Part shown: positions 36,170 to 58,319 of the stretch, piece by piece | How positions within the stretch are numbered: the stretch's first letter is position 1 | Layout: each line of letters starts with the position of its first letter | Assembly (NCBI RefSeq): GCF_910592395.1 | Contig: NC_088314.1 | Location: forward strand, 13,578,001 to 13,642,000 | From: Lineus longissimus | Taxonomy: Eukaryota; Nemertea; Pilidiophora; Heteronemertea; Lineidae | Length of the DNA stretch: 64,000 nt | Direction: 5' to 3' | Program-made: the position numbers and the translations under genes | The notes under the pieces: generated by a model | Databases searched by the model: none | What the model saw: the letters and a program-made list of their open reading frames with translations, nothing else | What the model was told of the DNA's origin: nothing

Positions 36170-36311
36170 TGTAAAGTAATGAAGTTAAGTCTAAATGTAG
36201 CGTGATCGGAAGTGCTTTATTCGTGAACAGTGCGCATGATCAATATGCAGATGACATAGTAAAAGCAGTCATCACAAGGTGTGATTCACAGGTGACTCTA
36301 ATAATCGAACA
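36170..36311 (-). repeat. Gypsy 3' LTR
   Basis: 142 bp. The two differences from the 5' LTR are C/G in AGTG(C/G)GCATG and G/T in AATC(G/T)AACA. Confidence 0.95.
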
Positions 36312-36322
36312 TCCCCCTTTTG
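36312..36322 (-). promoter_or_regulatory. Polypurine tract
   Basis: On the minus strand AAAAGGGGGA immediately precedes the 3' LTR, the expected primer site for plus-strand DNA synthesis. Confidence 0.75.
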
Positions 36323-36561
36323 ATGTAGCTCTGTTGACTAATAATGACTTCTGATACTTGACTTAGTTTTTTAAAAATACTCAAATGATTATGCAACAAC
36401 TACAACAGGTATTCAACAATTGCAGGTATTCATACAAAACGGATTATGTTGATATTGATAAAGATTATAATTGAATATATTGTCGAATGTTAGTATACCC
36501 TTATTCACCGGATATGGTTTCTAGTGCGAGTTGTGAAAGGGTTGATTGTCCTTGACGCATT

Positions 36562-39345
36562 TCAGACAAAGTCATTGTATTTGGGATTAGGCTTTACTAC
36601 ACGGCCTGATCTGGTGGTGACAACATTGTCAGTTGACTGATTGTTTTTGTTTGTCACTGTCCCTGCGGGTGGGGCAGCAATTGGTAGTGGTGCGTCGTTC
36701 ACTGTATTGTCCTCGTTTGAATAGTCTGGTTTTGGGAGTTCTTTCTCGCTATTATGCGGAATGTTTTGGATATGAGAGCGGTTTCGCCTGAGGATTTTTT
36801 CGTCCTCAGTGTGCACTTGGTAAGATCGGTGCGGTGTTGTGCTGAGGATTTCCCCTGGTATCCAGGTTTTACCGTCATGCATCCTGACAGTCGTTCCTGT
36901 CGGGAGCTGCGGCAACGGATGTTTGCAAGCGTGATTGTCATGATGGTACTTGGCTGTATTTTGTCGCGTTGTTAGCTTTGCAGCGACCCCATTAGGAATC
37001 TGTGGCTGCAATGTGGCAGAGGCGGCAGGCAATTGTGTGCGCAGTTTTCTGCCAAATAAGAGCTGTGCTGGCGACTCTAGTCCATCTCCACGTGGTGAAT
37101 CCCGATAAGCTAACAATGCAAGGTACGGGTCCTTGCCGGATTCTTTGGCTTTTTTCAAGAGTTTTTTAGCTGTCTGTACCGTCCGTTCGGCTAATCCGTT
37201 TGAACGCGGATAGCGAGGACTCGATGTCTTATGGGTGAAACCCCATTTGTCCACAAACTCCTTGAATTTGTGGCTTGAATATTGAGGTCCATTGTCACTG
37301 AGAAGATTTTCCGGTATCCCATGACGCGCAAATATTTTCTTTAGGTGAGCTATAACGGTGTCTGACGTAGTGTTTTCAAGGAGCTCGACCTCAAAGAATC
37401 CTGAGTATGCATCCACTACTAGGAGATAGTCTTTGCAGTGAAAGAAGAAAAGATCACTCGCTGTGTTTTGCCATGGACGTGACGGAATAGCGTGAGGTTT
37501 TCAGCGGCTCTTTCTGTAGTTTGCGTGCATGGCGCTGGCATGTGGCGCATTGTGATACTTTATCGGCTATTTGTCCCAGCATCCCTGGCCAGAACAAAGT
37601 TTCTTTGGCTCTGCGTTTGCAAAGTTCTGCTCCGAGTTGTCCTTCATGGATCACTGTGAGCATGTCAGCCCTCATAGCCTTTGGGACAACTATGCGGCTT
37701 GCTTTGAGTATGACGCCTTCGGCTACGTGATACTCTTCTTTATCTTCCCAATACGGACCTAAGGCGTTGTTTAGGTCACGGCAATGGGTTGGCCATCCCG
37801 ATTGTATGACATTGGCCAGAAGCTTAAGTTCATTGTCCTGGGCTGTCGCTGCTTGGAGCTCGTCCAGCTTAGACTTTGACACGGCTGGTGATTGTACCAG
37901 AGAATGCACCTGTACCTTAACTTCTTTCTCCATGTCTGAGTGTGGCTGTCCGGGCAGGTTTGCGTGCGACAGTGCATCTGCGACTAACATCTGTTTCCCA
38001 GGTACATGAATGAGTGTGAAGGAGTATTTTTGCAATCTCAGCAAGAATCTCTGGATCCTAGGTGGCGCTTTATAGAGTGGTTTGTTGACGATTGCTTCCA
38101 GTGGCTTATGGTCCGACTCGATCGTGAATTCTCGGCCATAGACAAATTGATGAAACCGTTCACAAGCGTACGTTGCTGCTAGCGTTTCCTTCTCAATTTG
38201 AGCATAATTCTGCTCAGCGCTTGTTAGGGCGCGCGACGCGAAAGCTATTGGGTGTCCCTCTTGGATAATGGCGGCTCCAATACCATCTTTGGATGCGTCC
38301 GCGGTAACACTTACTTCCTTCTTTGGGTCGTAGTAACCCAGCACAGGAGCTTCGGTGAGCCTGCGCTTTAGTGTTTCAGTGGCATTTCTTTGGGGTTCGT
38401 CCCATGTTCCTGTTTCGTGTCAGCGTATATAAGAATGTCATCTACTGAGTTGCATACGCCATCTAGTCCTTCTAGAATTTGTGCGAGTGTTTTCTGAAAC
38501 ACCTCGCTTGCGCTGGAGATGCCAAACGAAAGCCTTTTGAATCTAAACCTACCAAAGCACGTGTTAAACATTGTCAGTTTCGAGCTTTCTAGGTCCAGCT
38601 TTATCTGCCAGAACGATGAAGATGCGTCAAGCACTGAGAAGTACTTGGCCCCAGCCAGTTTTGCTGCGATTTCATCTGCTGTTGGTAGCTCGTAGTGCTC
38701 CCTACGAATTGATCTGTTTAACACCTTGGGATCGAGACATATCCTTATGCTTCCATCGGGTTTCTCGACACAAACTATGGGATTGACCCAGTCGGTGGGC
38801 TCATCCACCCCGGCTACAATGTCAATCTCCTGTAAGCGTTGGAGTTCAGTTTTTAGCTTCGGTTTGATTGACTCCGGCATTTTCCTGGGAGGGTACACTC
38901 TTGGGGTTCCGTCAATTTTCAAACTTATGTGGGGTCCGGCACCTTTAGACACCCCACACCCTCGAACAGGTCCTTGAATTCGCCTAGAATAGCCTTAGAT
39001 ACGGCATCCTGTACGGTAGGATCCGTCTCACCTGACGTCTTAGTAACGATGTGTTCAGAGTTCAAGCTGTATATGCGTTTTATCAGTCCTAACCTGATGC
39101 TTGCTCTGGAGCCTATGATTGGCTCGGAGTGTACCTCAGCAATCATGAATTCAATGTCATAGTCACGGTTCTTGTATGAACATGTTAGCACACATTTTAC
39201 CCGTAATCCTATATGTGAGCCATCATACCCAATGAGTCAAACGTTTGCCTTTGATAGCTTAGGGACATGGCATAGTTTCCTAAACAGCCGGTAGGGAATG
39301 ACATTGGCTTGTGCCCCAGTGTCAATCTTGAATTTAAGGTTTGTC
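36562..39345 (-). pseudogene. Gypsy pol (protease, RT, RNase H, integrase), deleted
   Basis: Protease: KFKIDTGAQANVIPY (DTGA at 39312-39323) in a frame offset from gag, with an in-frame TGA at 39236-39238. RT at 38952-38368: LDASSSFWQIKLD, RLSFGISSASEVFQ, CNSVDDILIYAD. A frame change lies near 38944. The RT thumb/connection is missing: ADTKQEH is followed directly by sequence that should lie ~100 residues later (WDEPQRN in another frame). RNase H: VTADASKDGIGA, IEKETLAATYACERFHQF, IESDHKPLEAI. Integrase: CATCQRHARK, then after a frameshift near 37500, VDAYSGFFEV, LLSDNGPQYSS and NGLAERTVQTAKK, ending at 36562. Confidence 0.88.
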
Positions 39346-40350
39346 CTGCTTGGGACCTAGCGGCATCGTGATGTGCCACTGTGTGTCATCAGTGGTAGGC
39401 ACTGCATCTACGGCACCAATGAAAAGTTCCTCAAATGAGTCAGTATATCCACAGGCATAGTCGTCGTTATTCTGTTGTTCCACTGCATGCACAGAGCGAC
39501 GACCTCCTGACGTGTTTGATCTGGGGCCATGATAATGTCTCTTGCTATTACTGCCACCACGGCTTCTGTTTTGCGACTTTCTGCATAGTTTCTCGAAGTG
39601 GTTCTTTACACCACAAGACCAACATGTTTTGCCGAATGCCGGGCACTGTTTTGGTGGGTGATTTCGCCCACAGTTCTGGCAGCTAGGGCCTGAACTTTCC
39701 GAAGCGGCAGAAGTGTAGAAGTTTGTTTGTTTACCTTGTCTATAATTGGCATTTCCGCCCAGCCTCGATTTCGATCCTGACGACACGGCGTGTACCTCCC
39801 TTGGAGGGTGTGTGCTTACTAGATCTGCCAGTTGCGTTTTCGATTGTTCAGTTGCCTGGCATATCTGCACTGCCTTCGTCAAAGTGAGGTCGGTAACTCT
39901 CAAGAGGCGTTCGCGTAATTTATTGTCCAATATTCCGTATACAATCCTGTCTTTTATCAGCGATTCGGCAAGGCCGCCGAACTCACATGACTTGGCTTTG
40001 TTTCGTAAATCCGTGACGAAGGCATCAATGCCCTCGCCTGCCAACTGTATTCGAGAATTGAACCGGTGTCTCTCATACGTTAAGTTCTTTTTGGGTGTGA
40101 AATATTCCGCGAATTTAGCTTTCAAAGGCACGATCTTGTCCTTTTCACCCTCCTCAAATGTAAACGTGCTATATACCTCCACGGCGTCCTCGCCGATGCA
40201 ATGGAGTAGTGTAGCACAGTGTAAAGCTTCGTGTTTCGTCGCCGTCCCTGTCGCCGTGGCGTACCATTCGTAATTTCGTATCCACCGTTTCCAGTTCTCT
40301 GACAGGTTACCCTCAAGGATCATATCCTTAGGCTGCTTGAGACCTTCCAT
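39334..40350 (-). CDS. Gypsy Gag (Mag-like) with two zinc knuckles
   Basis: 338 residues, starting ATG 30 nt below the primer site region (MEGLKQPKDMILEGN). The capsid-like part has NWKRWIRNYEWYATATG and FNSRIQLAGEGIDAFVTDLR. Two knuckles follow: CQNCGRNHPPKQC and CWSCGVKNHFEKLC. The frame is complete, so this is the only intact gene of the element. Gag packages the RNA in a particle and chaperones reverse transcription. Pol starts in a different frame near the gag stop. Confidence 0.88.
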   Translation of the reverse strand: MEGLKQPKDMILEGNLSENWKRWIRNYEWYATATGTATKHEALHCATLLHCIGEDAVEVYSTFTFEEGEKDKIVPLKAKFAEYFTPKKNLTYERHRFNSRIQLAGEGIDAFVTDLRNKAKSCEFGGLAESLIKDRIVYGILDNKLRERLLRVTDLTLTKAVQICQATEQSKTQLADLVSTHPPREVHAVSSGSKSRLGGNANYRQGKQTNFYTSAASESSGPSCQNCGRNHPPKQCPAFGKTCWSCGVKNHFEKLCRKSQNRSRGGSNSKRHYHGPRSNTSGGRRSVHAVEQQNNDDYACGYTDSFEELFIGAVDAVPTTDDTQWHITMPLGPKQDKP

Positions 40351-40363
40351 TTTCGCGATAATT

Positions 40364-40381
40364 TCAACAATTCTGACACCA
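40364..40381 (-). promoter_or_regulatory. Primer binding site
   Basis: TGGTGTCAGAATTG directly follows the 5' LTR on the minus strand. It begins TGG, complementary to a tRNA 3' CCA. I believe it fits a Leu- or Ser-type tRNA, but have not checked. Confidence 0.7.
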
Positions 40382-40523
40382 TGTAAAGTAATGAAGTTAA
40401 GTCTAAATGTAGCGTGATCGGAAGTGCTTTATTCGTGAACAGTGGGCATGATCAATATGCAGATGACATAGTAAAAGCAGTCATCACAAGGTGTGATTCA
40501 CAGGTGACTCTAATAATCTAACA
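40382..40523 (-). repeat. Gypsy 5' LTR
   Basis: 142 bp, TG...CA, followed by the ATCGG duplication. Confidence 0.95.
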
Positions 40524-42613: not shown

Positions 42614-42615
42614 AA

Positions 42616-42900
42616 CACTGTTAAACATTTTTCCAGTATTTTAACAGCAAAGTGCTTGTAGCAGAGTAACACAACACTTTGCTGTATTTTTACAGCACCA
42701 GTTTATTGACAGCAACTGCTCGTAGATTTATAGTACTGCTGTTGTAACATTTTCAAAGCAATGCTGTAAAAATACAGCATTTAGTGTACATCCAAAGAAC
42801 CACACTTTTGTTTTTTTACAGCACTTGCAGTAGAAAACTGCTAAATTACTGTAAAAATACAGCATTGGCTGTATTACAGAAACTCCACTTCGGTTATTCA
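42616..42900. repeat. CACTA subterminal repeats, left
   Basis: Repeated direct and inverted TTTACAGCA / TGCTGTAAAAATACAGCA words, e.g. near 42680, 42770 and 42850. They are likely transposase binding sites. Confidence 0.75.
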
Positions 42901-44810
42901 ACACAGAATAACAATTTCAAAAAGCTCAGTCACAACAGCTAACCTTGTCACAAATGAATAGTTCTAATGACAGGGCATCTGTGGCAAAGTTCTCTTGCTG
43001 GGGACTAGGCCTATAGGACAATCAGATAGAAAACAAATGATACATGTATTTTCTTGATTATTTTTATTTAAAAAAATAACAGTATCAGTAACAAAATTAA
43101 GTATCAAAATTACAAACTTTGAATTAAAAACTTTGAAAGCAAAAATATTACAGAACTTTGAAATGATCGTAGTGCTAGGAAGGCGGTTCTTCTGCCATTG
43201 ACAATGCCGTTAAAAGAGCCAATCAGAATGTTATAAACACAATTTCAATTTCACAATTTTGCTCTACCGGAATAAACACTTTGGTGAGCTCAATGTAAGA
43301 GGCAATGGCAAGTCAAATTACATGTATTTCGGGAAAGTTATGAAATCATCTGTGGAATTCCACATGAAACAAATTAACCACAGGGAATCGCATGATTTTT
43401 TTTTTAATACAGAACTGAGGAAAAGTCCCATACGATCACCTAATATACTATAGTATCCCTGTGCATTTCCAATTACCTGTAACCTTTTTTCATCCTACTG
43501 GGCGGAGAGGTTATACCCTTTTACCTGAAAGATGGCTGCACCGTCTGCTGAACACAAAAAATACCAACAATCTGGAAAATCAGAATTAAAACAACCTCAA
43601 GGCACATCGCGACATGTGACAAAGTGTCCATAATACCAATCACTACAGGGCGTTTCCAACACCTGCAACAGTTCAGAGTTTCAAAATCGTAATTTCTAAA
43701 AATACACTGTGGCATGTAACAAAGCGTCCATAACACCAATCACTACAGGGCGTTTCCAACACCTGCAACAGTTCAGATTTTCAAAATCGTAATTTCTAAA
43801 AACCTGAGTGCAGTACTACAGTTTGAAGGCTGTCAGCTTTCTATCGTTTCCCAAAGCATTCCACATTAAACGATCATGCTCCATTTGAAAAAAGTGTCCA
43901 CAACATGACTTGTTAACATTTTGAAAGCCGCTACTAGTATGCAAGCTCATAAGCTGACACCCTTCAAATTTTAGTGCTGCCCTTAGATTTTTAGAAATTT
44001 CCACATATTATATACACCCGGCAGTATCATATCAGTGACAAGGAACCTAGAGTCTATAACATTGTGTATTTTCTAGTTGTCATTTCTTTTGCCGACAGCC
44101 CAATCTGAATTCGAATTCCCCGATCTTGTTAGTAAGAGACATTACACGGGGATGAATGGTGACCCTTTTCCTCTTGCATGTTTTGCATCCGTGTTGTTTG
44201 GCTTGACCTGTACCCATGGTACCAGGATCTGCACTTTCAGGGTTTATCCCAACTATCTCCCTGAAAAAAATTAGAAAAGTCTTAACCAATCACTAGCAAC
44301 AAAGTTCTCCCTGGCAAGAAACTAGTCAAGGCGCTTAGACTGCACTTGACAGTTTATTCGCAAATGTTGGCTGACTATCGACTAAAGGTTGATTTCCTGC
44401 CGAACATGCAAAATTAAACACAACATGTAATTAAAAGGGTCACATAGATTTCTTACAGATTAGTCAATTTAGTAGAGCCAACTACCCCATATAAACTGTC
44501 AAGTGGAGTAGCGGCATTAAAAGAAAAGAGATGACAGCCTTGTTATAATGTGTTCCCGGTGTAATGTTTTTGAGTGTTTCTGTTTTTGAGTGTTTCCCCT
44601 CATTGTTTTGGAACGCTCAAAAATAGATTGACAAGTTTTTCTGTGTATCCCCCCTATTGAAAAGTCGTGGTCTCTCTAGCTGCCTATTGCTTGGAAACAC
44701 TGACACATGGGGAACAACCACAGATGTTACACCGGCATTGCCTATGGTGCTATCTGAAGAAAGAAATGGGAGCAGAACAGCAATCTTTAGAGGCTGAAAG
44801 CAATGACTCC
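42901..44810. other. CACTA 3' region; no gene seen
   Basis: No coding sequence is supported. A ~106-bp tandem duplication lies at 43612-43803: each copy has CACTACAGGGCGTTTCCAAC, ACCTGCAACAGTTCAGA and CAAAATCGTAATTTCTAAAAA. Confidence 0.5.
43612..43803. repeat. ~106-bp tandem duplication
   Basis: Two copies differing at only a few sites, start-to-start distance ~106 bp. Confidence 0.75.
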
Positions 44811-47800
44811 TCAGTAGCCGTAATCTCCATTTCTGTGCAGACCAGCTATAAATTGAGACACGTACCTTTGAAGGAATTCCAGCGTTGCTTCTGCTTCCAT
44901 TGGGTACTTGATATTGAGAACGTAAAAAGATGCAAACAACATCTGAACTGCTGTTGAGAAATCTGGCACATTTTCATTTACGATCTCCCCTTCAATGACA
45001 AGGTAGTACATATTCTTACCAAGCAAGATATCATCTTGGTCTCCTGAAGAGAAATACAGTAAACCTTTTATACAATGGACTCGCACATAACAGATTTTGG
45101 CATATAACAGACCAGACATCCAGGTCCCATCCAACACATTTACATTTAGAAGTCTATCACATAAAGACAATTTTTTTATTTCTGAATTCTAAAAAAAATC
45201 CGAAAAAATAAAGTGTAAAGTTTTTTTTAAATCTATCCAATCACAGTTGATCGAGGGGCCACAATCCAGCTCTCTAAAACACTCTTTTACTACATGTATT
45301 TGGCTTAACCGTTTCAAAATTATTGCTGGAGGCATCTGAAGAGAAAAATCTTGCCATTTAAATAGCATATCAAAACCAGATCCTCCTCCGTAGCAATTAA
45401 ACTAAATATTATTTGTTCTGAGTATAGAATGAAATTGAAAGGCCTAGCTTGGCATATAGTCTCTATGTTGGTTTGAGGCACTTACCAAGGACTGCTATGT
45501 ATGGTGACTTCAAGGCTGACTTGTCCTTCAAAATATCGTCCTTCTTGCCACCAATCTGGAAGAAATTAAATACTAGTACTATACACATGTGTCAAGATAT
45601 GATACTGAGCATACAGTTTGCCCATTTTGTTGCATGGGTCATACTCCATTCATCCTCCAAACCGTTTGAAGCAAATATCAGGAGAAACAATCTGAAACAA
45701 AATGTATGACTTTTATAGAACATGCAGAGACTGAAATGAATGGTCATGAATGATGAGCATATATCAGTTATAGAACGGAAAATGAATTTTATTGAATACC
45801 TGTCCGATAATTGTTGATTGCAGGTTTATTGACCTGTCCGTCAGGTATTTTCAGTTTGGAACCTCCCTGTGATGTTGGCTGTAATTCAGAATTTGGGGAT
45901 TTCAAATAAGACTTGAACCAAAGAATGTAGAGTTGGCTTCAACTGAGAAGACAGTGAATTGAGAAATCAGGGGAAATTGAAAACGCACCATGACCATGCC
46001 AAATCATTTTTAGGACTATTGGATACAACTGCTAACTTTGCATTAGTATACATAATTTAACGTTTGAGTGGTTCAGACTAAATCTAATAACTAATGAAAT
46101 AAGGCATTCTAAAAAATCCCTGACTTCCAGGATTCTCATTCCTACTGTCTTTAGCCACGACAAATGAAATCCCCGGTAATAACAATTTTCCAACTTACCC
46201 CATAACAACGGAAGAGTGCATCCTCTTGCTCATCGAAGTAGGCATTGATAAGCAGCACAACACCATGACTGGCTGGTTTCTTTGACTTTACCGTAGCCAT
46301 GTTCTCTTTAATGATCTCTATCCACTTTTTTAATGCCGGCAACTTTGAATTTTGAGAAGCGGAAATCATGAAATTAAAAATTCTCTCCCCCTTGTTCCTC
46401 CCCACCAACTGCTCCTCAAAGACGGATGCCAGATCAACTCCAGTTAATTTCTCGAAGTGGTCAAGAAGATACGGGATTTTAAACAGGAACGGCCATTCTT
46501 TTTTCAAGCTCGCAATTGGTACATCAGCATTAATGATCCTTCTCTGTAAAGGATAAGTTTCTTTCATTTGAAGAGACACTGTTGTAATATCGTTATAATC
46601 TTCTTCGTCTTTTCCGAATTCTTCAAGGAGTCGTTTCTTGGTTGCTTCGAGTACAGTTTCTGTTCCCGTATCACTAATTTTAGCCGCCCAATTAGTGCAT
46701 CCATACTGGTCATGTTGGTCGAGTTTAACCTTTTTCTCGGGCAGGTCATGGTTGTCATCAGCACTAACGGTATCTGTCGTGGCTGTCTGAGGCATGGAGT
46801 TTTTACCTTTCTTGTTATACACACAGTTTTCAATTTGCTTGAATACAGATTCATATCCATTTCCCAACTTTAAGCCATTCATGTCACGGTTCTGAAATGA
46901 CTCTGGATAAGTTTTCACTAAACCGATAGCAGCGTCACGGATAGTTTTTCTTGGCACAACCACAGGCACAGGAAAATCAGCCAAAAGGTCATCAGCAATT
47001 ATTCGAATTGTCTCCCTCCTCCCTGAAGCGGTGGGTCGTTTGTTCTTCTTACATGCTTTCAAAACATCCCTGGGTAACCTTTTGAACGGCACTTCAAAAG
47101 CATATCTTGTAGGTGTATATGATGGCCTGCCTGTAGGTGAAGAGCTCCGGGTACTACAAGGTGAAAAGATGGTTGTAGATGCCAGGGACGACGCATCATC
47201 ATCATCGGGCTCAGCGTCAGTTTCCGGAATAACCACTCGGTATCTAGACTTCGATTTAGTCTTCAGTTCTGAAAAAGAGATAATTGTGAGTCTCAGGAAT
47301 CACAACTTAATCAGAATAGGCTCTTGTTATCTGCAGTCATACTGCCGCTCCTGAATAGTTCTGGAAAAAAGAGATATGTGCACATGTTTACACAGATACT
47401 AATAGTGGGCTTCAAAGTAATTTCCATGAATAAAAGAGAAATACCCTTATCATTTACCGAAGATATGCTTGTACAATACCAATTGTTTGGGCTTTCACCA
47501 GGGTCAGTAGAGTGAAAGGAAATATGTTCCCATGCTATCAGACAAGCAATAACCACCAGAATCATTGGAGCAGACAGAAAATGTCACTCCCATGTTACAA
47601 AAAACAGGGGAATGACATGGGAGGCCTTAAGAAGTTAACATGTATTTCATTTACAGTTCATGTTGAAGGAACCTATAAAATTTAGAGCTGGCGACATACT
47701 TTGTGTAAAAATGCTGTCAGGGCTGTCAAACTTACCATTTTTTACTGCTGCTAATAGTTTCCTTTTTTGTATGGGCTTCAGAAAACCAAGATCCTGTTCT

Positions 47801-47973
47801 TCAATGTATTGGAGATCACTCGGGCAGCTACTACCAAGGAGAAGGATTTGTGATTCGATATCGCCTATCTCTTCCGGTGTTAAACTACTGAATACTGCTG
47901 TCAAAACATCTGTCACGCTGGTATGACGCGCAAGGCCGAATGACTCAGATGGTTTTACTGGAGCCGAAGCCAT
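44811..47973 (-). CDS. SAMD3-like protein gene in the CACTA element
   Basis: The exons fit as 47973-47736 (ATG; donor GTAAGT), 47268-46199 (acceptor TATCTCTTTTTCAG; donor GTAAGT), 45555-45486 (acceptor TTTCTTCCAG; donor GTAAGT) and 45043-44811 (acceptor TTTCTCTTCAG; stop). Phases agree for exons 1-2 and 3-4; the 2-3 join needs another exon or a shifted site. Exon 1 has a SAM-like domain (DLQYIEEQDLGFLKPIQKRKLL). Exon 2 has TASGRRETIRIIADDLLADFP, KETYPLQRRIIN and FLFKIPYLLDHFEKLTGVD. Exon 4 has FSTAVQMLFASFYVLNIKYP and LEFLQRYV. These are blocks of the 'sterile alpha motif domain-containing 3-like' family; its biochemical role is unknown to me. No stop or frameshift is seen in the exons. Confidence 0.75.
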
Positions 47974-49723
47974 GACGCACCTGAAATGAGAAAGCCAAAA
48001 TAATGCTACAAAATTATGCAATGTTCCTCACAAATTCAACTTTTAAAGAGGGGCTACTGCCATGCTAACTGTCAGGGAGCTTGCAACAAAATATAGACCT
48101 ATGAAGTGAACATGCCAGAATGGGCATCAATATTCCTTACAAAAATGCAGCAAGACACATCATGAGGGACAACACTGTCATGGCTGTGTAAGTCGGCCTA
48201 ATTGCTGAGTTCAAAACACTTGTAGTCAATTACAGGCGAATGCAGCTGAATGTATTATGAGGCACACCACAGGCTTGAAATTAGCAGCAACTCGTGTAGG
48301 GTACGGTGCACTGATGATGTTGGAAACTGATCAAAGTCTGCTCCTAGTAGGCAGTAGGCTACAAATGAAAAGAACAAGGACCAAAACAGACAGACATTGC
48401 ATCTACATGTTAGTTCAAGAACTTTTTTCTGCGCTGATGAATCAACATACCAAGCTAGATTTAGTCATTCTGAATCTGTCATGTCCGTCATCTGCCCATC
48501 CACCACGTCCACGTCCTGCACTACAGAATGTTTCAATGCAATGTAAGTTGTGTTTCTAATATTATATGCTTGTAAAGGCTCAGCATCTAAGACGTTTTTT
48601 CCGTTGGTGCACACCATGGGCCTTTGATTCAATGGCTGTGTGGCATGCATGGTAGAAATTCTATACACTCCAATGTCCGGATCAAAATGTCCAAGAAACT
48701 TCTCCAAAACAAAGTGACAGCAGCTTTCAACGCCATCATCAAAGATGATAAAAGCCACTATACAACCAACCTGCAACTGAGACGACCCTTGATCCGATCT
48801 GGAATATGGTCATCTAGCTTCAATGCAACATATCCTCCCTTTAAGTACTCTATTCCATCCACATGAACTGAATCAGATATGTGTTCTGTCGTGGTTCCTT
48901 CATGAGCTGCACAGTTTTGAACCACCTGAGTTAGAGAATCACAGTAGAGTTCTGCATGAAAGGGAATCGATTTTTCTGCCATCACACCAAGGTTGAAATA
49001 GTGACCCTGTCCAAGGTAAGCCTGAAGTAGTTGGTGTTTTATGGAAAGTGATTTTGTCACATTGATGAAATTTGGACAATGCCGGATGCTTTTCTTGAAA
49101 TACGAATGCTTGCTTTCAAATCTCAAAGTGCTACTTCTGGTTAGTGGACCACACTTCTGAATAAGAGACGGGTAATGCAGCAAATAATGATGTTTTGGCC
49201 AAAGTCTGGTTTCTGGGAATAATTCACTCCTAAAATGAATGTACTCCTCAATCAGGACTTGCAAATATGCTATCTGCCCAACAGAAATTCTGGGTGAACA
49301 CACCAACTCCACTATATTGCGCAAGAGAAGAAGTAGTTGCCATGATGGGTCTGTTGGATCCTGTACTTTTGCCATAACAAGGAAGGGAATATTCCGCACC
49401 AAACACCAATTTTCTGCAGCGTGTCCAATTTATTTTTTAATGTTAGGTTTCCCACTGATTTCCTTTGGCTTGTCCCTTGCATCATATCCCTTGAAACGAA
49501 ATTTGCGAATCATGGCATTAAGGTAATCGTAACTAAACCATTTCTTGTTTCTCACAAGATCTTTGATAATTAGTATCACATCATAGGGAACCACTCCCTC
49601 AAATAGATCATGCCCAATACATGGAGGGAGCCCAGGGGCACATACATGGAAATGACTAATAAAGTTCAAAGGCGAACGTAACTTGATGCCGTGATAAGAA
49701 GTAACATCAGGATTTTCTTCCAA

Positions 49724-52508
49724 ACAAGAGGCCCAAGGGCCTGGCGCTCAGCTGAGTTGTTGCTGCGTTGTTCGTATATATTACATTACTCGTCAAACTC
49801 TACTAAACTAAGGACTCAAAGCCTAAGGATATTAGCTTCTGGATGTGTAACAGTGAATTACGGTAGACTGGCGCAATCTACTTCAAGCAAGCTCCACCCT
49901 TGCAATGTGTGCGCAAACAGATAACCTAACCTATATTGGACCATCAATTCTACACACAGCAACATGATTCATCCTCAGCTGTTACCATGATGATGATGAT
50001 GATGATCCTTTTCGCAAATTGGTCGTCTTCTGTCTTTCTTCCAAACTTTAGTGCCACCGGATGTAGTCTGCCCTTGTGGAGGGAGCCTTTCAGCACAGGA
50101 CACAAGAATCCATGCGAATTGAATCACATGGAGAGACTAGCCCAATCACCCGCTTTTGGCTGGGTAGAAATGGGTAAATCTCGCAGACTGGACCTTAAAC
50201 TCTACTGCCAACGTGTGAGGCCGGTCTGACAGATGAGCAAGTAGGGTCCACCTAATGCAGAAGGCACCAGTTTCCCTAACTAAAAGGGTAACATTAACAA
50301 AATGCCCTACCCAACTCTATTATTGCCTAAAGGCCTGTGTACACTAGTAAAATATTAGCAACATTTTTACAACATTTCCAGTTGCAACAAATGTTGCAAA
50401 AATGTTGCGTAGTGTGTACAGAGCAAAACGCGTCTTACATTTACAACATGTTGTAAATTGTTGTAAAATTGTTGTAAAATTGTTGTAAAATTGTTGTAAA
50501 ATTGTTGCAAATTAAATGCAATGCAATTCTTTGTTGCATGTTGTAAAAATGTTGCAAACTCTTCAGCCAATCAGAAATAGGATTTGCGTCATGTGATCTA
50601 CCTGAGGTCATGTGACTTGAACAAGAAGCAGGTATAGCAACTCTCAAGTGAGTGTCTTGCTTCGTAGGGTGATGAAACCTTTTCTAGAAGTTTCATCCAT
50701 TCGCAGGAAGTTTTTGTATGACGGCTTGTCAGTCAGCCGCAACTCCTTTAACAGGCAGTGGTATGCCCCATGATCCACCCTCATTTTGATCCAGGGCCTG
50801 GTCCATATTCTCTTTGGTCATTTCGCCGCCTCTTCCGTCTCTCAACAATGACAGCTAAAATTGCTGCAGAAGCACTCAAAACACATCTTCTCTCCTTGGA
50901 ATCATCCATTTTCCCTCCAAAATACCTATTTCCCTTTGTTCCCACTAAAAACTCAGCAACAATTTACCAACATGTTGTAAAAATGTTGCTAATTTGTTGC
51001 AATTTTGTTGCTAGTGTACACAGGGCCTTGAAGGGCTTGTTGCAAAATTGTTGTAAAAATGTTGCTAATATTTTACTAGTGTACACCCTGCTTAAGTCAA
51101 GTGAAACTCTTACAAACCTTAGCAGAATGCCAGCATTGAAATGTTGATAGCAAGTAAAAACTTTAAACAGATAGACTTGATTTTTTTAACCAACTGCCAC
51201 ATGCGGTTTTCTTTATTTAGTCAATTTTGAGGTAAGTATTACAGAATGAAACACTTGAATACTAAAATTGAATGGCTCTTCTGATGATTGCACTGGTGAA
51301 CACCGAAGTCGATGGGATGTGCAAAGTCATAGCTCGATCCTCTCTCTTGGTCATCTGTGATGTGGTCACCAAATATGTTCAAATGCAGCTGCAGTAGTGC
51401 AGATCATTCCTGCAAAACATGATGAGGAGATAACATTTTAATTTTGATAGATAGCTGAGCTAGCCAAGTTTTAAATCAAATACAAGGCCAACAACAACTG
51501 ATAAGGCGCTAGGGCCGAATGGTCAAGGAAGTTCATTGAGAATACATTGTGATAAGAGTGATGAATCGGCCCCGTTTGAAGCATTGCGCTATGTACAGTG
51601 TGCATGTGTCAGTGTGTATCAGCTATCGCATTTACTGTTTGTTGACATTTCAAATCGCCGGAGTGGATCCTCAATTACACTGTTTTTGTACATTGGCAAC
51701 CTTACCCGATGATATCAGAACGATGTTTATTATTGTCTTGTTTATTCACATTAGTTCTGCTATGTGACAAGTTATTTGTTGAGTAATCCATGATTTAAAG
51801 CCGGACTTTGACATCGTTTCTCAGACCAAGCTGCATTTCGCAGATCGTTTTTCAACGATCGTCGACGAACTATTTCAAATTAATCACATCCAATTAAACA
51901 ATCCAAGCCTTCCCTAATGTCATCAACATGCAATAACACAAGCAGCAAAATATTATCGCCTATGAAATTGTGGATTTAATGAGAACTTACCTCCGAATTG
52001 ACAGAACGCGATCTATTCCATAGCATGGTCTCCTTACGTCTGAACTGCGCAGACTCCGAGACGTGACGTTCGCTGCACGTGGGATAACTCGCGCGAAATT
52101 TAAAATGCTCCTCTTGGGGGGGTGCTCACTAAATTGCGCCAGTAACACCACCTGGTGAGAAATTCATGAACCACGCCTATTGATAATGAAAGAGAAAGCT
52201 TTGCTCTATAAGATTAGATTTGATTCATGATCCCCAACTTAAAGAATTAGGAGAAATCAGCTGCTGGCAAAGTTTTTGGAAAATTTCGCTCGGTGCCACC
52301 TAGTGGCCAAACCGCTCATCCTGCCGGACCCACATTTGGTCTATTCAGGAGTCCTGAAGGGTCCCAATGCCTCAGAGGGAAAATCAATCGCCTATCCGCC
52401 ATAGTTTTGAAACGTGCCTGTTTAACGGACAGACAGACAGACAGACAGACGGACATTCATTCTACCATTTACTCATATGAATAGCTCAGCTTGTCAGCTG
52501 AGCTAAAA
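49724..52508. mobile_element. HINE/'pearl'-like element inserted in the transposase
   Basis: The left end is ACAAGAGGCCCAAGGGCCTG with GCGCTCAGCTGAG. The right end has the ACCTAGTGGCC block, (GACA)n near 52434-52452, then CTCAGCTTGTCAGCTGAGCT. The transposase frame (EAVN, then EENPDVTSYHG) reads straight through if it is removed. It sits between two T residues without duplication, the target preference of Helentrons. It contains a MITE at 50338-51091 and no gene. Confidence 0.82.
50338..51091. mobile_element. TIR element with TTGTAAAA microsatellite, nested in the HINE
   Basis: Left GTGTACACTAGTAAAATATT pairs with the inverted right end and continues as AGCAACATTTTTACAACA. A TTGTTGTAAAA unit repeats about five times at 50454-50512. 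The right end reads as CAGGGTGTACACTAG, similar to hAT termini. I cannot find a clear target duplication. Confidence 0.65.
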
Positions 52509-54057
52509 ATTAACAGCTTCATCATAATTTTCTCGAGTCCTTTCTGCACCAGTACTCAACGGATTTTCATGGAACTGTTCCATTGTAACAAGGCAGAAAC
52601 AACAGGGGTAAGTGCAGTTTGAAAAATTCTCAGTAAATCCTCCTATGTTATGGCTTCCCAAATTGTCCCCCAACATGAACAGAACTGATCCTTTGACATG
52701 TCTGTTATCATTTCCTGAGCCAATGTCTATACCATTTTCTTCAATGTCTTTCACATCGCGGATGAATGAGTGAAACACCTTTTCACCTTTAAAGTACTGA
52801 AAGTCTTTTTCCCGACAAAGCAGAAGAAGTTGGAATGGGTCAACTTTCGATTACACTGCCAATATTTTGTGTTTCGTTCGGGAGGAACCCAATGGGTTGA
52901 CTACTTCAAAGGCATCCTGATATGCTATAATCACTAATGCATGAGGATCGTTTCCAAAGATTGGGTGATTATTGAAAACACTGCCATCCCTGAAATCATC
53001 ATAGACCCCAGGTACCGATTCATTTGGTGAAATATACTGACTCCACACAGAAGAATCCTTTAAGAGAGACTGTAAAGATTGTTTCAGAGGCACATAATGA
53101 CAATGTCGACTAATATTGTTATCATCCTTGCCTAATTTAATTTCAACTGGAGACACAAAATCAAAGTTATCCCTATAAAACTCTCTTCTTTTATAGCTTG
53201 ACCAAAGCTTTCCACCTTCGGGGTCATGGGCAAGCTGAAAAAAAATCACTTTTAAACACATCATCTATGATAGCCTTAGATTGTTCCTCATCTAAACCCG
53301 CCTTGTGAAGGGAACCTCCAAGCAGTACCTTCAAATGATTTTGTCCAATCCTATGAATGTCACACACACTGGATACTATTTCCTGAATCGCTGATTGTGG
53401 AATGTGAAATTTGGCCTCCAGTTTCAGATAAAATGTTGCTAAATAGTTCATGAAGTCATCTTCAGAGAACTGTTCATCCTCTACAATATTGTGATGATCA
53501 GAATCTGCTTCGTCCAACATGCCTTCCTCAATGTCCTCCGCATTGTTTTGATCCTGTTCTGGCATAAGTTGATCACCACCAGGATCACTAGGATTATCTA
53601 AGTTTTCATTTACAGGAACCAAGTCAACTACATTATGCTTACGTGATACATGAGAAGTGAATGAAGAGACAACTTTGTACTTCTTTGGGCAACCAATAAA
53701 TGGACAGATAATCTCCTCATCATCACGAATGTGCAAATTCAAATGTGACACTAAATTCCTGTAGCTGAGAAACCCTTTTTTGTACAGGGAGCATATACAA
53801 GCTACCCCTTCTTTCTGTGATCTTTGATTGCGTAGATTTTGGTGATCTCGTGTAACATGCATACTAAATCCTGAATAGGACTTGAACAACCGTGGACATC
53901 CTTCCACCCCACATGGAAACTGCATGTTATTTTCATGCCTGTGAACAGCGTAGTGTTGGACATAAGACTTGAGTGACTTTGTTTCACGACCGCAACTTCT
54001 ACAGCAAAACATACCTAAAATTTCAGTTTCTTTCAGGGTCTTTAACAATTCAATCAA

Positions 54058-54432
54058 GGCTGTATTAATCGATGAAACCTGAAAAGAAAACGGAAGTACA
54101 ATGTATTTGAGTACTGATGCATCTTACCTTGACTGAGCAAAACATTCATGCTCATCATTGCCTGGAGTAGGCCCAAGGCCAGCACCCCCACCCCCCCCCC
54201 TCAGCCCCGCCCCGCCCCCTGGTCGATCCCACCCCTGAGACCCACCACGCAAAAAGGTCAGGAAAACATTTTTTTATTCCAATTTTAGGAAATTAGGGAA
54301 CTGTTCAAATGTTCTTAGACCCCTGTTAAATTAGGCAAGCCTACGTCCATTGCTCTTGTTCTGATTTATAAATGACAATGTTCCACAAGGAATATAAACG
54401 TCGTCGTCGCTACTATTGGCAGGCGTTTCAAA
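54058..54432. other. Upstream of the transposase; C- and G-rich tracts, no gene
   Basis: C-rich run near 54187-54230 and a run of about 16 G near 54445. The promoter of the transposase gene would lie here but no element could be recognised. Confidence 0.35.
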
Positions 54433-55093
54433 ATATTATTATGGGGGGGGGGGGGGGGAAATAGCTCAAAGGTTTGTAGAAGACTTAAGTCAGGTTTCCT
54501 CAACTAGATATATTATTTCACTTAACTAAATACAAAGATGTACAATCGCTGTCACAGACTGGCGTGTCCTAATCTGGCGTTGTTCTCAGGCTGGAGTCCT
54601 GAACCTGAATGCCTAATCAAATCACTTTGATTTGCAGGAAAACAATTGTTATGACTACAAGTGGTATCTACATAGAATCACACATTCCAAACAAGGCTAA
54701 GAGCTGAACATGCAAGATCATGTATGCCTTCTCTCATAGCCTGGGCCTGCTAAATTAAAAGTCAATATTATTACATAGGTTATCAAACGTGATCACAATA
54801 ACTTTGAATGAATCTAGTATAGGTTTAAGCATGAATTCTTTAGTCCTTTGTTCTGTTCTGATGAAAAGGTGTACTCATATTGTGAAACAGAAATACAAAC
54901 AATGCCAAACTTGAACATGTTTGGAGTGGCTAATCCAACATCAATAACATGTTAATTAATACTAATTAAAAACCAGTGTTTGACTGTACTTGTTAACTAA
55001 GCTGTCAGAAGCTAAAAGTAATATTGTAGATTGAGAATTATTAAGATAAGTTAAAATTATATAGTTTGCCAAATCATCTGAGATTTGCACCAT
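54433..55093. repeat. ~650-bp direct repeat, left copy
   Basis: From AATATTATTATGGGGG to GAGATTTGCACCATAAAA. Nearly identical to 56826-57466, with small indels (e.g. GTTGTTCT extra in this copy, ATCAATA extra). Confidence 0.9.
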
Positions 55094-55532
55094 AAAAGAC
55101 TCCTGTTGTTTTAAAATCAAATTCGCTCCTGCGAATTACACGTTGTCTACAAAGACAAAACCAAAGCAAATTATACAATCATAGACATACAAAATGAGGT
55201 GATACAAACTGCAATGAATCAAGATAATTTTAACACAAGTTGCAGCCAGTCCAAAATCCAAGTTCTAGTCCAAATCATGAGCTAAAACTGCAAAATATGC
55301 CAAGACAACAGATAAAATATAACTTAGAAAGCAGTTCAATTAATTCACCATAAATTGAGTGTGATAGCTACTATGGATTCACTCCATAAAATACTCCTGT
55401 TGTTTTAAAACTCTAAATTTACACCTTTGAGAAAAGACTACATGTAACAAGCATTTAATTAATACAAAGAGAAAAATATACGGTACTGCAAGAATGCACA
55501 TTGGCTAAATTAAACGGCACCACCAAAATCTG

Positions 55533-56825
55533 CTAGAAAGACATTTGGTCATAAGCAAAGACTCTGTTTACCACATGGGGTTGGCCGGTGTTGGGTAGTT
55601 TGTTGAGTGGCATGTCATGGGCTAGTGAAAATGTTCTTTTCAAATGTTTGTAATGGAAGTATGCAAAAACTCTTGATGCGTCACTATTGCGTATGTCTGG
55701 AGAGCACTCGATATATTCCTCAATGCAGTCCTGGACGTTGTAAACAGCTTGCACGTAGATTGTCATAGGATTCCTATTAGTGGTAGTTTGAAGGTGAACA
55801 CCTAAGGTTTGGGTGTGAGCAAAGTTCTTTGCAGGCGGTATGTATTCTGGAAACTGTGGGACAGACTTTAGTAATGTTGGTTTCAGCGGTTCAAGGCACA
55901 ATGCTGCTTCTCTACTCGTCTGCTGCGTTGCAGGATTGCTGAAAAGTACTCCGATGTTGGCAACATTGTCACTGTGGAGATCCTGTACCTTCGATAGAGT
56001 TGGATCCACCGAATAGGCCTTGCCTCTAATTTTGTATCCATAATTGTAAATGAATGTCTTTGCCTCCCCGTCCAGGTCAGCACTATTTATCCATGAACTT
56101 TCCTTGGCTGGACGATCTCTCCACCTGATCAGAAACTGTTCTCCATCATAGCACTTTCGTCTTGCTACAACACTTTCTGTTACCATTTTCCTGCATTCAG
56201 TTTTTGTGTTGACCGCAGTTGGCAGTGATGAATCCTTGCTATCCTGGTCCTTCGGTGCGGTTCCTGTCTGTGATTGGGCATCAGCAGATATTAGCTGGTC
56301 ACACTGATTAGAGGTAGACTTCGTTTCCTTACTGCACTGGATTCCAACTGAAATACTCTCTGTGATGCATTGGACCGCACATGATGACGTTTCTGGATTA
56401 CACTGTGTGCTTGTTGATGAAGTTTCTGCTGGAGGGTTCTCTGGAGCTGACATGCTTGTTGCTTGGTCCTTTGAATTGGCAGTATTGGGAACGTGAACAG
56501 TAGAAATCAGAGGAAGAGAGTTTGTCACAGTGTCACTTACAGCTTGGCTCTTGACTTTCTGCAAGTAGGCTTGCATACGACGATGATCACGACGAAGTGT
56601 TGATGGTGACTTCATACCAGTTACTCGTAGTGGGGAAGCAAAGCTTTCGACTCCCCCATCCTCCGTCCAGTTGAGCGTTAAGGAAAGTCCATCTCCAGCT
56701 GATGAAAGAGTCCACCCGTTTGGTGAATTGGTTAATCCTAGATGTTCTAATACTGAAGAAAGTGATGGCGGGACTGCTGATATTGTCATTATGAAATGTT
56801 CGGGATCCTTTGAGTTCTCCACCAA
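55533..56825 (-). CDS. Chromodomain protein, single-exon ORF
   Basis: About 430 codons open without break. An ATG at codon 13 (MTISAVPPSLSSVLEHLGL) is the likely start because the upstream codon used to open the frame is GTG. The N-terminal third has NGWTLSSAGDGLSLTLNW. A Ser/Thr/Cys-rich middle follows, then a chromodomain-like segment at about residues 220-270: SVVARRKCYDGEQFLIRWRD, then PAKESSWINSADLDGEAKTF. Chromodomains bind methylated histone tails or guide integration. Its 5' end abuts the right copy of the 650-bp repeat, which would supply the promoter. It could be a third CACTA gene or a separate insertion. Confidence 0.7.
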   Translation of the reverse strand: MVENSKDPEHFIMTISAVPPSLSSVLEHLGLTNSPNGWTLSSAGDGLSLTLNWTEDGGVESFASPLRVTGMKSPSTLRRDHRRMQAYLQKVKSQAVSDTVTNSLPLISTVHVPNTANSKDQATSMSAPENPPAETSSTSTQCNPETSSCAVQCITESISVGIQCSKETKSTSNQCDQLISADAQSQTGTAPKDQDSKDSSLPTAVNTKTECRKMVTESVVARRKCYDGEQFLIRWRDRPAKESSWINSADLDGEAKTFIYNYGYKIRGKAYSVDPTLSKVQDLHSDNVANIGVLFSNPATQQTSREAALCLEPLKPTLLKSVPQFPEYIPPAKNFAHTQTLGVHLQTTTNRNPMTIYVQAVYNVQDCIEEYIECSPDIRNSDASRVFAYFHYKHLKRTFSLAHDMPLNKLPNTGQPHVVNRVFAYDQMSF

Positions 56826-57466
56826 ATATTATGGGGGGGAAATAGCTCAAAAGTTTGTAGAAGACTTAAGTCAGGTTTCCTCAACTAGATATATTATTTT
56901 ACTTAACTAAATACAAAGATGTACAATCGCTGTCACAGACTGGCGTGTCCTAATCTGGCTCAGGCTGGAGTCCTGAACCTGAATGCCTAATCAAATCACT
57001 TTGATTTGCAGGAAAACAATTGTTATGACTACAAGTGGTATCTACATAGAATCACACATTCCAAACAAGGCTAAGAGCTGAACATGCAAGATCATGTATG
57101 CCTTCTCTCATAGCCTGGGCCTGCTAAATTAAAAGTCAATATTATTACATAGGTTATCAAACGTGATCACAATAACTTTGAATGAATCTAGTATAGGTTT
57201 AAGCATGAATTCTTTAGTCCTTTGTTCTGTTCTGATGAAAAGGTGTACTCATATTAAGAAACAGAAATACAAACAATGCCAAACTTGAACATGTTTGGAG
57301 TGGCTAATCCAACACATGTTAATTAATACTAATTAGAAACCAGTGTTTGACTGTACTTGTTAACTAAGCTGTCAGAAGCTAAAAGTAATATTGTACATTG
57401 AGAATTATTAAGATAAGTTAAAATTATATAGTTTGCCAAATCATCTGAGATTTGCACCATAAAAAT
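56826..57466. repeat. ~650-bp direct repeat, right copy
   Basis: Pairs with 54433-55093. The two copies flank the chromodomain ORF like LTRs, but both repeats share extra bases outside any TG...CA limit and no convincing polypurine tract is seen. Confidence 0.9.
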
Positions 57467-58079
57467 ATGCTTATTAAAATGTTCCTGACTCTTGGACTTA
57501 GTAACAGGAATAGGCCTAGCCCCGAGTTCCATAGATCTTACACCCCTAAATAACCAATTTCACAAAAGAGGGCGAAGCTTACTCACTACTGTATACTTTA
57601 GTAGTAACGTTAGCGCCTTGATCACACTACTGTTTCTTAGTCAAATTCACACATGCCCATATAAGGCTTTAAGAATAGGCCCGAACAATGGGCCGAACAA
57701 AAGACATGATGACGTAGATAGCCACAACAAACTTGGTGTGAAGCCGTCTATGCACATGCATGTAGACTTACACCCTCCTCACTCTACCATGCAGTGCAAC
57801 ATATCGTGCTTAGTAGTGTATGTGCATTGTCCATGTACATTACACTACAATGAGCATACACAAAAACACTGCTCTGCGTCGGGAAATGCCCCTGATAATT
57901 TACAATTCTAAACAATCCTAGCTAATCTTCGATAGCCAGATATTCAATTCATGTTCTTGTTGATTCACATTGTACCACCCTAAAAGCGATGTCAGTGGAA
58001 TTAGATCCGGAGGTTTACCTACCTCTTCTAGAAATGGACGGAAGTACTATCTAGAGCGCATCTAATTGCGCAACTGTTA
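57467..58079. other. CACTA 5' region; no gene seen
   Basis: No coding sequence supported between the right 650-bp repeat and the subterminal repeats. Confidence 0.4.
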
Positions 58080-58317
58080 AATTCCTGCAATATTGCTGTC
58101 ATTTTCCAAGTTTACAGCCGGTGTTGTATTTTGACAGCTGATCTGATGTCAAATCAACAACAATGCTGTCTTTTAACGAAAATATGTATAAAAACTGCAC
58201 CATGCTGTTCAATACCAACAAGGTGCTTGTGAAAATATATCAATTTGCTGTAAAATTAATTTTACAGCAAATTACAGTAAAATAATTACTGTAATTTTAC
58301 AGATATTTTTAACAGTG
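58080..58317. repeat. CACTA subterminal repeats, right
   Basis: TTTGCTGTAAAATTAATTTTACAGC, ATTACAGTAAAAT and related words, mirroring the left end, then TTTTTAACAGTG at the tip. Confidence 0.75.
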
Positions 58318-58319
58318 AA

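Follow-up and report, generated by a model that had tools for sequence, protein, structure and literature searches.

A decayed two-gene CACTA element with a probable partner gene of its transposase in the nemertean Lineus longissimus

The window analysed here, 64,000 nucleotides of the nemertean Lineus longissimus (NCBI RefSeq contig NC_088314.1, positions 13,578,001 to 13,642,000 of the forward strand), contains a CACTA-type element of 15.7 kb at positions 42616..58317 of the window, between whose ends lie a broken transposase gene, an adjoining multi-exon gene and an open reading frame (ORF) with a chromodomain, all on the same strand. Judged from its sequence, the element is a decayed two-gene animal CACTA (EnSpm) copy that sits in a Helitron-type helicase gene and was later struck by two insertions. 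An earlier note on this DNA had counted all three genes as parts of the transposon. The C2H2 transposase and the multi-exon second gene are indeed native to it, whereas the chromodomain ORF belongs to a nested insertion of the long terminal repeat (LTR) type, and the three-gene picture is hence replaced by a two-gene CACTA plus two later insertions. We regard this anatomy, with the chromodomain gene nested, as nearly certain.

The ends of the element read CACTGTTA and TAACAGTG (CACTG...CAGTG) and are flanked by AA on each side. CACTA/EnSpm elements have terminal inverted repeats (TIRs) starting with CACT, CACTG being an accepted variant, and target-site duplications (TSDs) of 2-3 bp; in the present element the fifth base is G and not the A of the CACTA name. 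When the two flanks were fused minus one AA, LIIDEISMVGCGM was joined directly to FSFIHQRLADIMDNKKLF and the helicase frame runs across the joint, with one in-frame stop 18 codons past it, after which GIHVLAIGD follows in the same frame. The alternative joins, with both AA kept or with 3 bases dropped, gave other, longer frames without helicase words. The segment that follows the element on its right side gave a match to PIF1 (1.8e-14). Flank joining and the AA duplication confirmed the limits, which the earlier note had fixed by the repair of the helicase frame and the 2-bp duplication.

The second gene adjoins the transposase gene on the minus strand and corresponds to the NCBI annotation LOC135491116 (protein P0001, 528 aa) with a 99% match; its exon limits (Table 1) were set by eye against the NCBI protein. 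The label 'SAMD3-like' follows a presumed resemblance to SAMD3. Searching the genome with P0001 gave 40 matched pieces (60 of 60 candidates scored), which collapsed to 17 second-gene loci. The corresponding search with the Lineus transposase protein P0002, which matches C12 at 100%, gave 49 matched pieces that were collapsed by hand, and because 47 of 147 candidates were scored, the numbers of transposase loci are lower bounds. They were divided, after the listing had been seen, into at least 16 loci whose best piece has >=38% identity to P0002 (the close clade) and at least 19 at <=32%. The second gene was found downstream and on the same strand at 15 of the 16 close-clade loci, the window included, within 5 kb in 11 cases and at 10.5, 15.0, 28.6 and 36.8 kb in the other four. 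Uniform placement would lead to 0.016 such loci versus the 15 observed, an expectation that crowding of both families in mid-chromosome would raise somewhat. The second gene is the nearest neighbour of none of the 19 distant transposase loci found, for which partners may have gone undetected; one of them has a second gene at 41 kb, but that gene sits 1 kb from a close-clade transposase.

The two proteins also diverge in parallel. Among nine of the 15 elements with both genes, the pairwise identities of the two proteins are correlated with r=0.93, and r=0.88 was obtained for the seven elements left after C3 and C1, which have near-identical partners, had been dropped (1 of 5040 permutations). 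The transposase identities between elements are mostly 30-60%. Joint occurrence and co-divergence fit an old shared element and would not be predicted by repeated capture. As far as the comparison of sequences goes, transposase and second gene are an old unit, which has stayed together and diverged together across the clade in this genome. Selection was analysed in 12 second-gene pairs, in the three deepest of which the synonymous divergence (dS) is saturated. The ratio of non-synonymous to synonymous divergence (dN/dS, omega) is 0.24 for C12 versus C6b and 0.21 for C12 versus C15 at dS ~0.32, two values that are not independent because C6b and C15 are close, while 0.07 (C11/C1) and 0.35 (C7/C3) were derived from few changes. 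For the transposase, dN/dS is 0.66 for C7/C3; the 0.67 calculated for C11/C1 was not used, because the C1 match splits into overlapping pieces and the value probably includes misread codons. The second gene, which accompanies the transposase in nearly all related copies found, is probably its partner.

Several observations speak against a partnership of this kind. Four of the transposase-second gene pairs are separated by 10.5-37 kb. At two of the 17 loci of the second gene (C15:3100096 and C15:994337), no transposase was found upstream within 45 kb, and one of the 16 transposase loci (C6:8159766) has no detected second gene. Moreover, omega is 0.62-1.35 in five further recent pairs of the nine with measurable dS, as is expected of decayed copies. 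The features of the protein and of the element ends that weigh on the same side are treated below with these parts.

Table 1. Features of the CACTA-type element in the window (a point marks features given without strand; TSD, target-site duplication; TIR, terminal inverted repeat)
Feature	Position	Strand	Details
TSD, left	42614..42615	.	AA
TIR, left	42616..42625	.	CACTGTTAAA
Subterminal repeats, left	42688..42856	.	4 octamers TTTTACAG/CTGTAAAA at 42688, 42764, 42814, 42849; some within 18-bp inverted units
Second gene, exon for conserved C-terminal block	44866..45043	-	
Second gene, small exon	45486..45555	-	in NCBI model
Second gene, large central exon	46199..47268	-	VPW.K.P block, HF..LTG block
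Second gene, N-terminal SAM-like exon	47736..47980	-	ATG 47973, 7 bases past splice acceptor ctttctcatttcag
CACTA transposase gene	48465..54012	-	C2H2 zinc fingers and presumed tnp2-like core; disrupted in window copy
Insertion of 2.78 kb in transposase gene	49728..52504	.	C3 copy without it
Nested non-autonomous LTR-type element, 3.03 kb	54437..57464	-	no part of CACTA element; LTRs 56827-57464, 54437-55097
Chromodomain ORF of nested element	55533..56828	-	431 codons stop to stop; ATG 56789; Chromo PF00385 5.4e-07
Subterminal repeats, right	58248..58302	.	octamer at 58248, 58260, 58295
TIR, right	58308..58317	.	TTTAACAGTG
TSD, right	58318..58319	.	AA

The transposase gene of the window copy has stops in frame at 52851 and 49430, its frame changes between 53264 and 53224, and the 2.78-kb insertion splits it; a composite of the pieces served as search query. 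It found 286 relatives, and those named among the 120 listed come from Lineus, the nemertean Tubulanus, sea urchin, a holothurian, fish and a soft coral. The blocks QD.FE..NPLG, GDNLGSH and HD.FEG as well as the cysteines and histidines of the zinc fingers are invariant in 20 aligned transposases, and these blocks may represent the DDE catalytic site. Matches to Transposase_21 and DUF4218 stayed below the curated cut-offs; Transposase_21 was hit in three of the four relatives scanned, the best reaching 20.9 versus 28.6 bits (2.2e-4). Together with the ends and the TSD, the conserved blocks support the assignment to the animal CACTA/EnSpm elements. Scanning viral contigs with the transposase profile gave 44 pattern matches, none of which was a relative. 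The transposase on C11 (L065 808-3651) is 70% identical to the sea urchin protein P0004 over 925 residues, and 42-56% identical to other divergent copies of the same genome with enough sequence, a closeness for which horizontal transfer is a possible explanation.

A genome search with the left 300 bp of the window element returned only the self-match and the right 418 bp matched only on C7 and C3. The sister copy on C3 (12447846-12455655) is 97.7% identical over the longest block; at C3:12446537-12447846 a reverse-transcriptase-like stretch, recognised by eye, adjoins this copy and removes its 3' part. A related element on C11 is bounded by CACTGTTA and TAACAGTG with a duplicated TA and possesses an open transposase frame of 950 codons together with the second gene; a chromodomain gene was not found in it. 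With 10.23 kb it is similar in size to the window element, which would measure ~9.9 kb minus both insertions. A copy on C1 is 98.7-99.6% identical to the C11 element and shares its right end, while its left end was not found; the right end was also located in the C3 copy, the end search having covered window, C11, C1 and C3.

In the window element, the octamer TTTTACAG/CTGTAAAA occurs four times in the left 300 bp, three times in the right 300 bp and never in the 15.1-kb interior, and its count of 7 per 600 terminal bp was reached by none of 5000 shuffles of the ends. The ends of the C11 element hold the octamer once per 600 bp, which 464 of 5000 shuffles match (no enrichment). A protein that binds the ends would hence need a separate motif in each subfamily, which has to be counted against such a function.

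The protein of the second gene has two conserved regions besides its N-terminus, the VPW.K.P block in the centre and a C-terminal block that ends with TLEF.QR. At the N-terminus, six segments align and are invariant at positions of G, D, L, LKP and R. A SAM fold is weakly indicated by a match to SAM_TNK at E=0.0047 in one of these six segments; the full C11 protein reached 0.054 and fell below the cut-off, and neither a credible PDB match for the second protein nor any SAM chain among its PDB matches was obtained. Likewise, no Pfam family was found for P0001, and the two conserved blocks gave no match to a Pfam family or a solved structure at the thresholds used. The protein search with the large exon gave 3197 candidates, among which only its own annotated Lineus form matched. 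Regarding the gene structure, a pyrimidine-rich CAG acceptor was seen by eye 3-11 bases upstream of the second-gene ATG in all five independent elements inspected (window, C11, C6a, C12, C9). Comparable acceptors, also read by eye, lie <=130 bases upstream of the transposase ATG in window, C11, C12 and C6a, the four elements for which this ATG was seen. No AATAAA or ATTAAA was found between the two ORFs in the two elements checked (window, 563 bp; C11, 434 bp).

Collectively, these data are in our opinion best explained by a two-gene animal CACTA element whose second protein acts like TNPA of maize, and we consider this likely as a whole. A single transcription unit with its start near the 58.3-kb end would contain both genes as downstream exons and be alternatively spliced as in maize Spm; the acceptors and the lack of polyadenylation-type hexamers between the ORFs are compatible with such a shared unit, to which we give an even chance. 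The second protein might oligomerise via its SAM-like end and bind the subterminal repeats, thereby pairing both ends for the transposase, so that the job of TNPA would be done by an unrelated protein. This TNPA-like role, which is proposed by analogy, appears to us about as probable as its opposite. It is more tentative, and on balance unlikely, that the second protein is the functional counterpart of plant TNPA and that, in addition, the SAMD3-like genes of other animals, possibly even vertebrate SAMD3, represent stray or domesticated copies of a transposon gene.

The likeness to maize Spm/En comprises a presumably tnp2-type transposase, CACT ends, subterminal repeats, a second element-encoded protein and possibly a shared transcription unit. 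The differences are a second protein that matches no Pfam family, although it was not compared with TNPA itself, a TSD of 2 bp instead of the 3 bp of Spm, CACTG instead of CACTA, and a transposase with N-terminal C2H2 fingers. According to the account given in PMC1636069, neither TNPA nor TNPD is dispensable in maize, and the binding of TNPA to DNA is stabilised by TNPD. An animal case treated in the same paper is SmTRC1 from Schistosoma mansoni, for which a TNPA-like second protein originating from alternative splicing was proposed in 2006; its authors report no detectable relative of this protein in other animal or fungal elements (PMC1636069). SmTRC1 and other animal TRC/EnSpm elements resemble the present one in being CACTA-related, in the Transposase_21-like protein and in the proposed TNPA-like second protein; however, the TIR of SmTRC1 begins with CCC (PMC1636069), and the second ORF described here is conserved across divergent elements. 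Kolobok lineages such as KolX and KolobokP, the latter of which is listed for Lineus longissimus, are likewise animal DDD/E elements whose accessory proteins are specific to the lineage, but they belong to a different superfamily and have different accessory proteins (PMC9587614). Among the papers listed, which leave out most subscription papers and Repbase entries, none connects CACTA/EnSpm with SAMD3 or with a gene for a SAM domain. A second gene that is kept across elements whose identity has fallen to 30-60% represents a concrete candidate for an animal counterpart of TNPA and makes it testable whether an animal CACTA needs two proteins. Moreover, host genes annotated as 'SAMD3-like' or uncharacterised may turn out to be transposon genes.

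Among the other explanations, the one that survives best assigns the second protein a role as regulator or as anti-silencing or chromatin factor of the element instead of an end-binding factor. SAM-type domains often polymerise in chromatin complexes, TNPA also regulates the Spm promoter, and the position behind the transposase would fit any accessory role. Nothing specific speaks against a regulator, which we view as possible albeit doubtful. It is improbable, in comparison, that a host gene was captured once by the ancestor of the clade and has since travelled along as a passenger that plays no part in transposition. The close-clade locus without second gene and the several recent pairs with omega near 1 are in line with a passenger, but such a gene should be lost repeatedly, whereas the second gene was kept at 15 of 16 loci despite transposase identities of mostly 30-60%, and omega is 0.21-0.24 at dS ~0.32. 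Finally, the NCBI gene annotation might suggest that LOC135491116 is a domesticated host gene surrounded by coincidental ends; given the exact ends with TSD, the 15 of 17 family loci behind a transposase and, within another CACTA copy (on C3), a copy of the gene that is 95% identical and has one stop codon, we hold this to be very improbable.

The least tenable proposal is the three-gene CACTA itself, in which transposase, SAMD3-like and chromodomain gene would be mobile together and the chromodomain protein would steer the integration to chromatin. The chromodomain is real and all three genes lie on one strand between the ends, but the nested unit has LTRs and a TSD of its own, the C3 copy represents an empty site, and only one of 36 further ORF loci lies near a CACTA transposase. 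For this family the proposal is ruled out by the empty site, and we see next to no chance for it. The direct repeats of the nested unit measure 638 and 661 bp and are 96.9% identical over 646 aligned bp, and ATAT is duplicated at 54433-54436 and 57465-57468. On the minus strand the unit starts with TTTTATGG and ends with CCCATAATA; two bases inside, at 56824, the sequence TGGTGGAGAACTC resembles a primer-binding site (PBS), an assignment made from its position and TGG start only. The sister copy on C3 shows a single ATAT and no nested unit. From the LTRs, the own ATAT duplication and this empty site it follows that the chromodomain gene is a later arrival and not, as the earlier note had assumed, a component of the CACTA element. 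The recurrence that the note had proposed as a check holds for the transposase and the SAMD3-like gene, but at none of the other 14 loci carrying both was a chromodomain ORF found within 45 kb. A nested element can pass for a third gene until a sister copy shows the empty site.

The genome search with the chromodomain ORF, in which 83 of 83 candidates were scored, resulted in 75 matched pieces. Many of these are partial, and they were collapsed by hand to 37 loci, 36 besides the window. The one further locus within 45 kb of a CACTA transposase has a distant-clade transposase on the opposite strand. The ORF has its nearest relative on C14 (97% over the first 324 residues); this copy matches only positions 54449-57464 of the window and nothing of the CACTA element. 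Thirty loci (L002-L031) were each cut with 1.5 kb flank, and a same-strand repeat >60 bp was found in 22 of them. These include tandem ORF copies at L006/L007 (C1:13821902-13824455; 1.34-kb units, 97.6% identical), short-range repeats at L013, and L003 and L008, which represent the same copy. In L021 and L023-L031, the repeats seen show 99-100% identity. Exact LTR/PBS junctions were found 19 times in the genome, each time at a locus of the ORF family; C14 has two of them, one of which belongs to the 3' repeat. Neither gag nor pol was matched in the nested unit, which has a single ORF and would thus be non-autonomous if it is an LTR retrotransposon; the protein search with this ORF gave 3462 candidates and no match. 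A chromodomain was detected in L005, L006 gave a weak match (0.01), and L021 gave none. In general, the family (window 54437-57464, L002-L031 and L033) shows a single orphan ORF of ~410-440 codons with a chromodomain in some subfamilies only. By these features we identify the ORF family as young, single-ORF, non-autonomous LTR-type elements. Non-autonomous LTR retrotransposons that keep one ORF are known as the TR-GAG type, and LTRs, PBS-like site, 4-bp TSD and single ORF are shared with it; the differences are the lack of a recognisable gag, the chromodomain in some subfamilies and the absence of homologues in the protein search. The mid-chromosome bias of the family (36 of 37 loci in the middle half of the contig) was considered as a clue to targeting and rejected as general, since 31 of 32 CACTA transposase loci behave likewise (32 of the 35 loci were compared).

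The other insertion, within the transposase gene, is presumably another mobile element. It contains at 50337-51086 inverted repeats of 54 bp (90.7% identity) that enclose 0.75 kb. They probably delimit a small DNA element, which would lie within this insertion as the insertion in turn lies within the CACTA element. Outside the element, a gag-type ORF at 39334-40428 with CCHC-like knuckles visible by eye, for which the Pfam scan gave no match, lies between and extends into direct repeats at 36170-36311 and 40382-40523. These repeats are 98.6% identical, and the stretch 36170-40523 is probably a short LTR retrotransposon.

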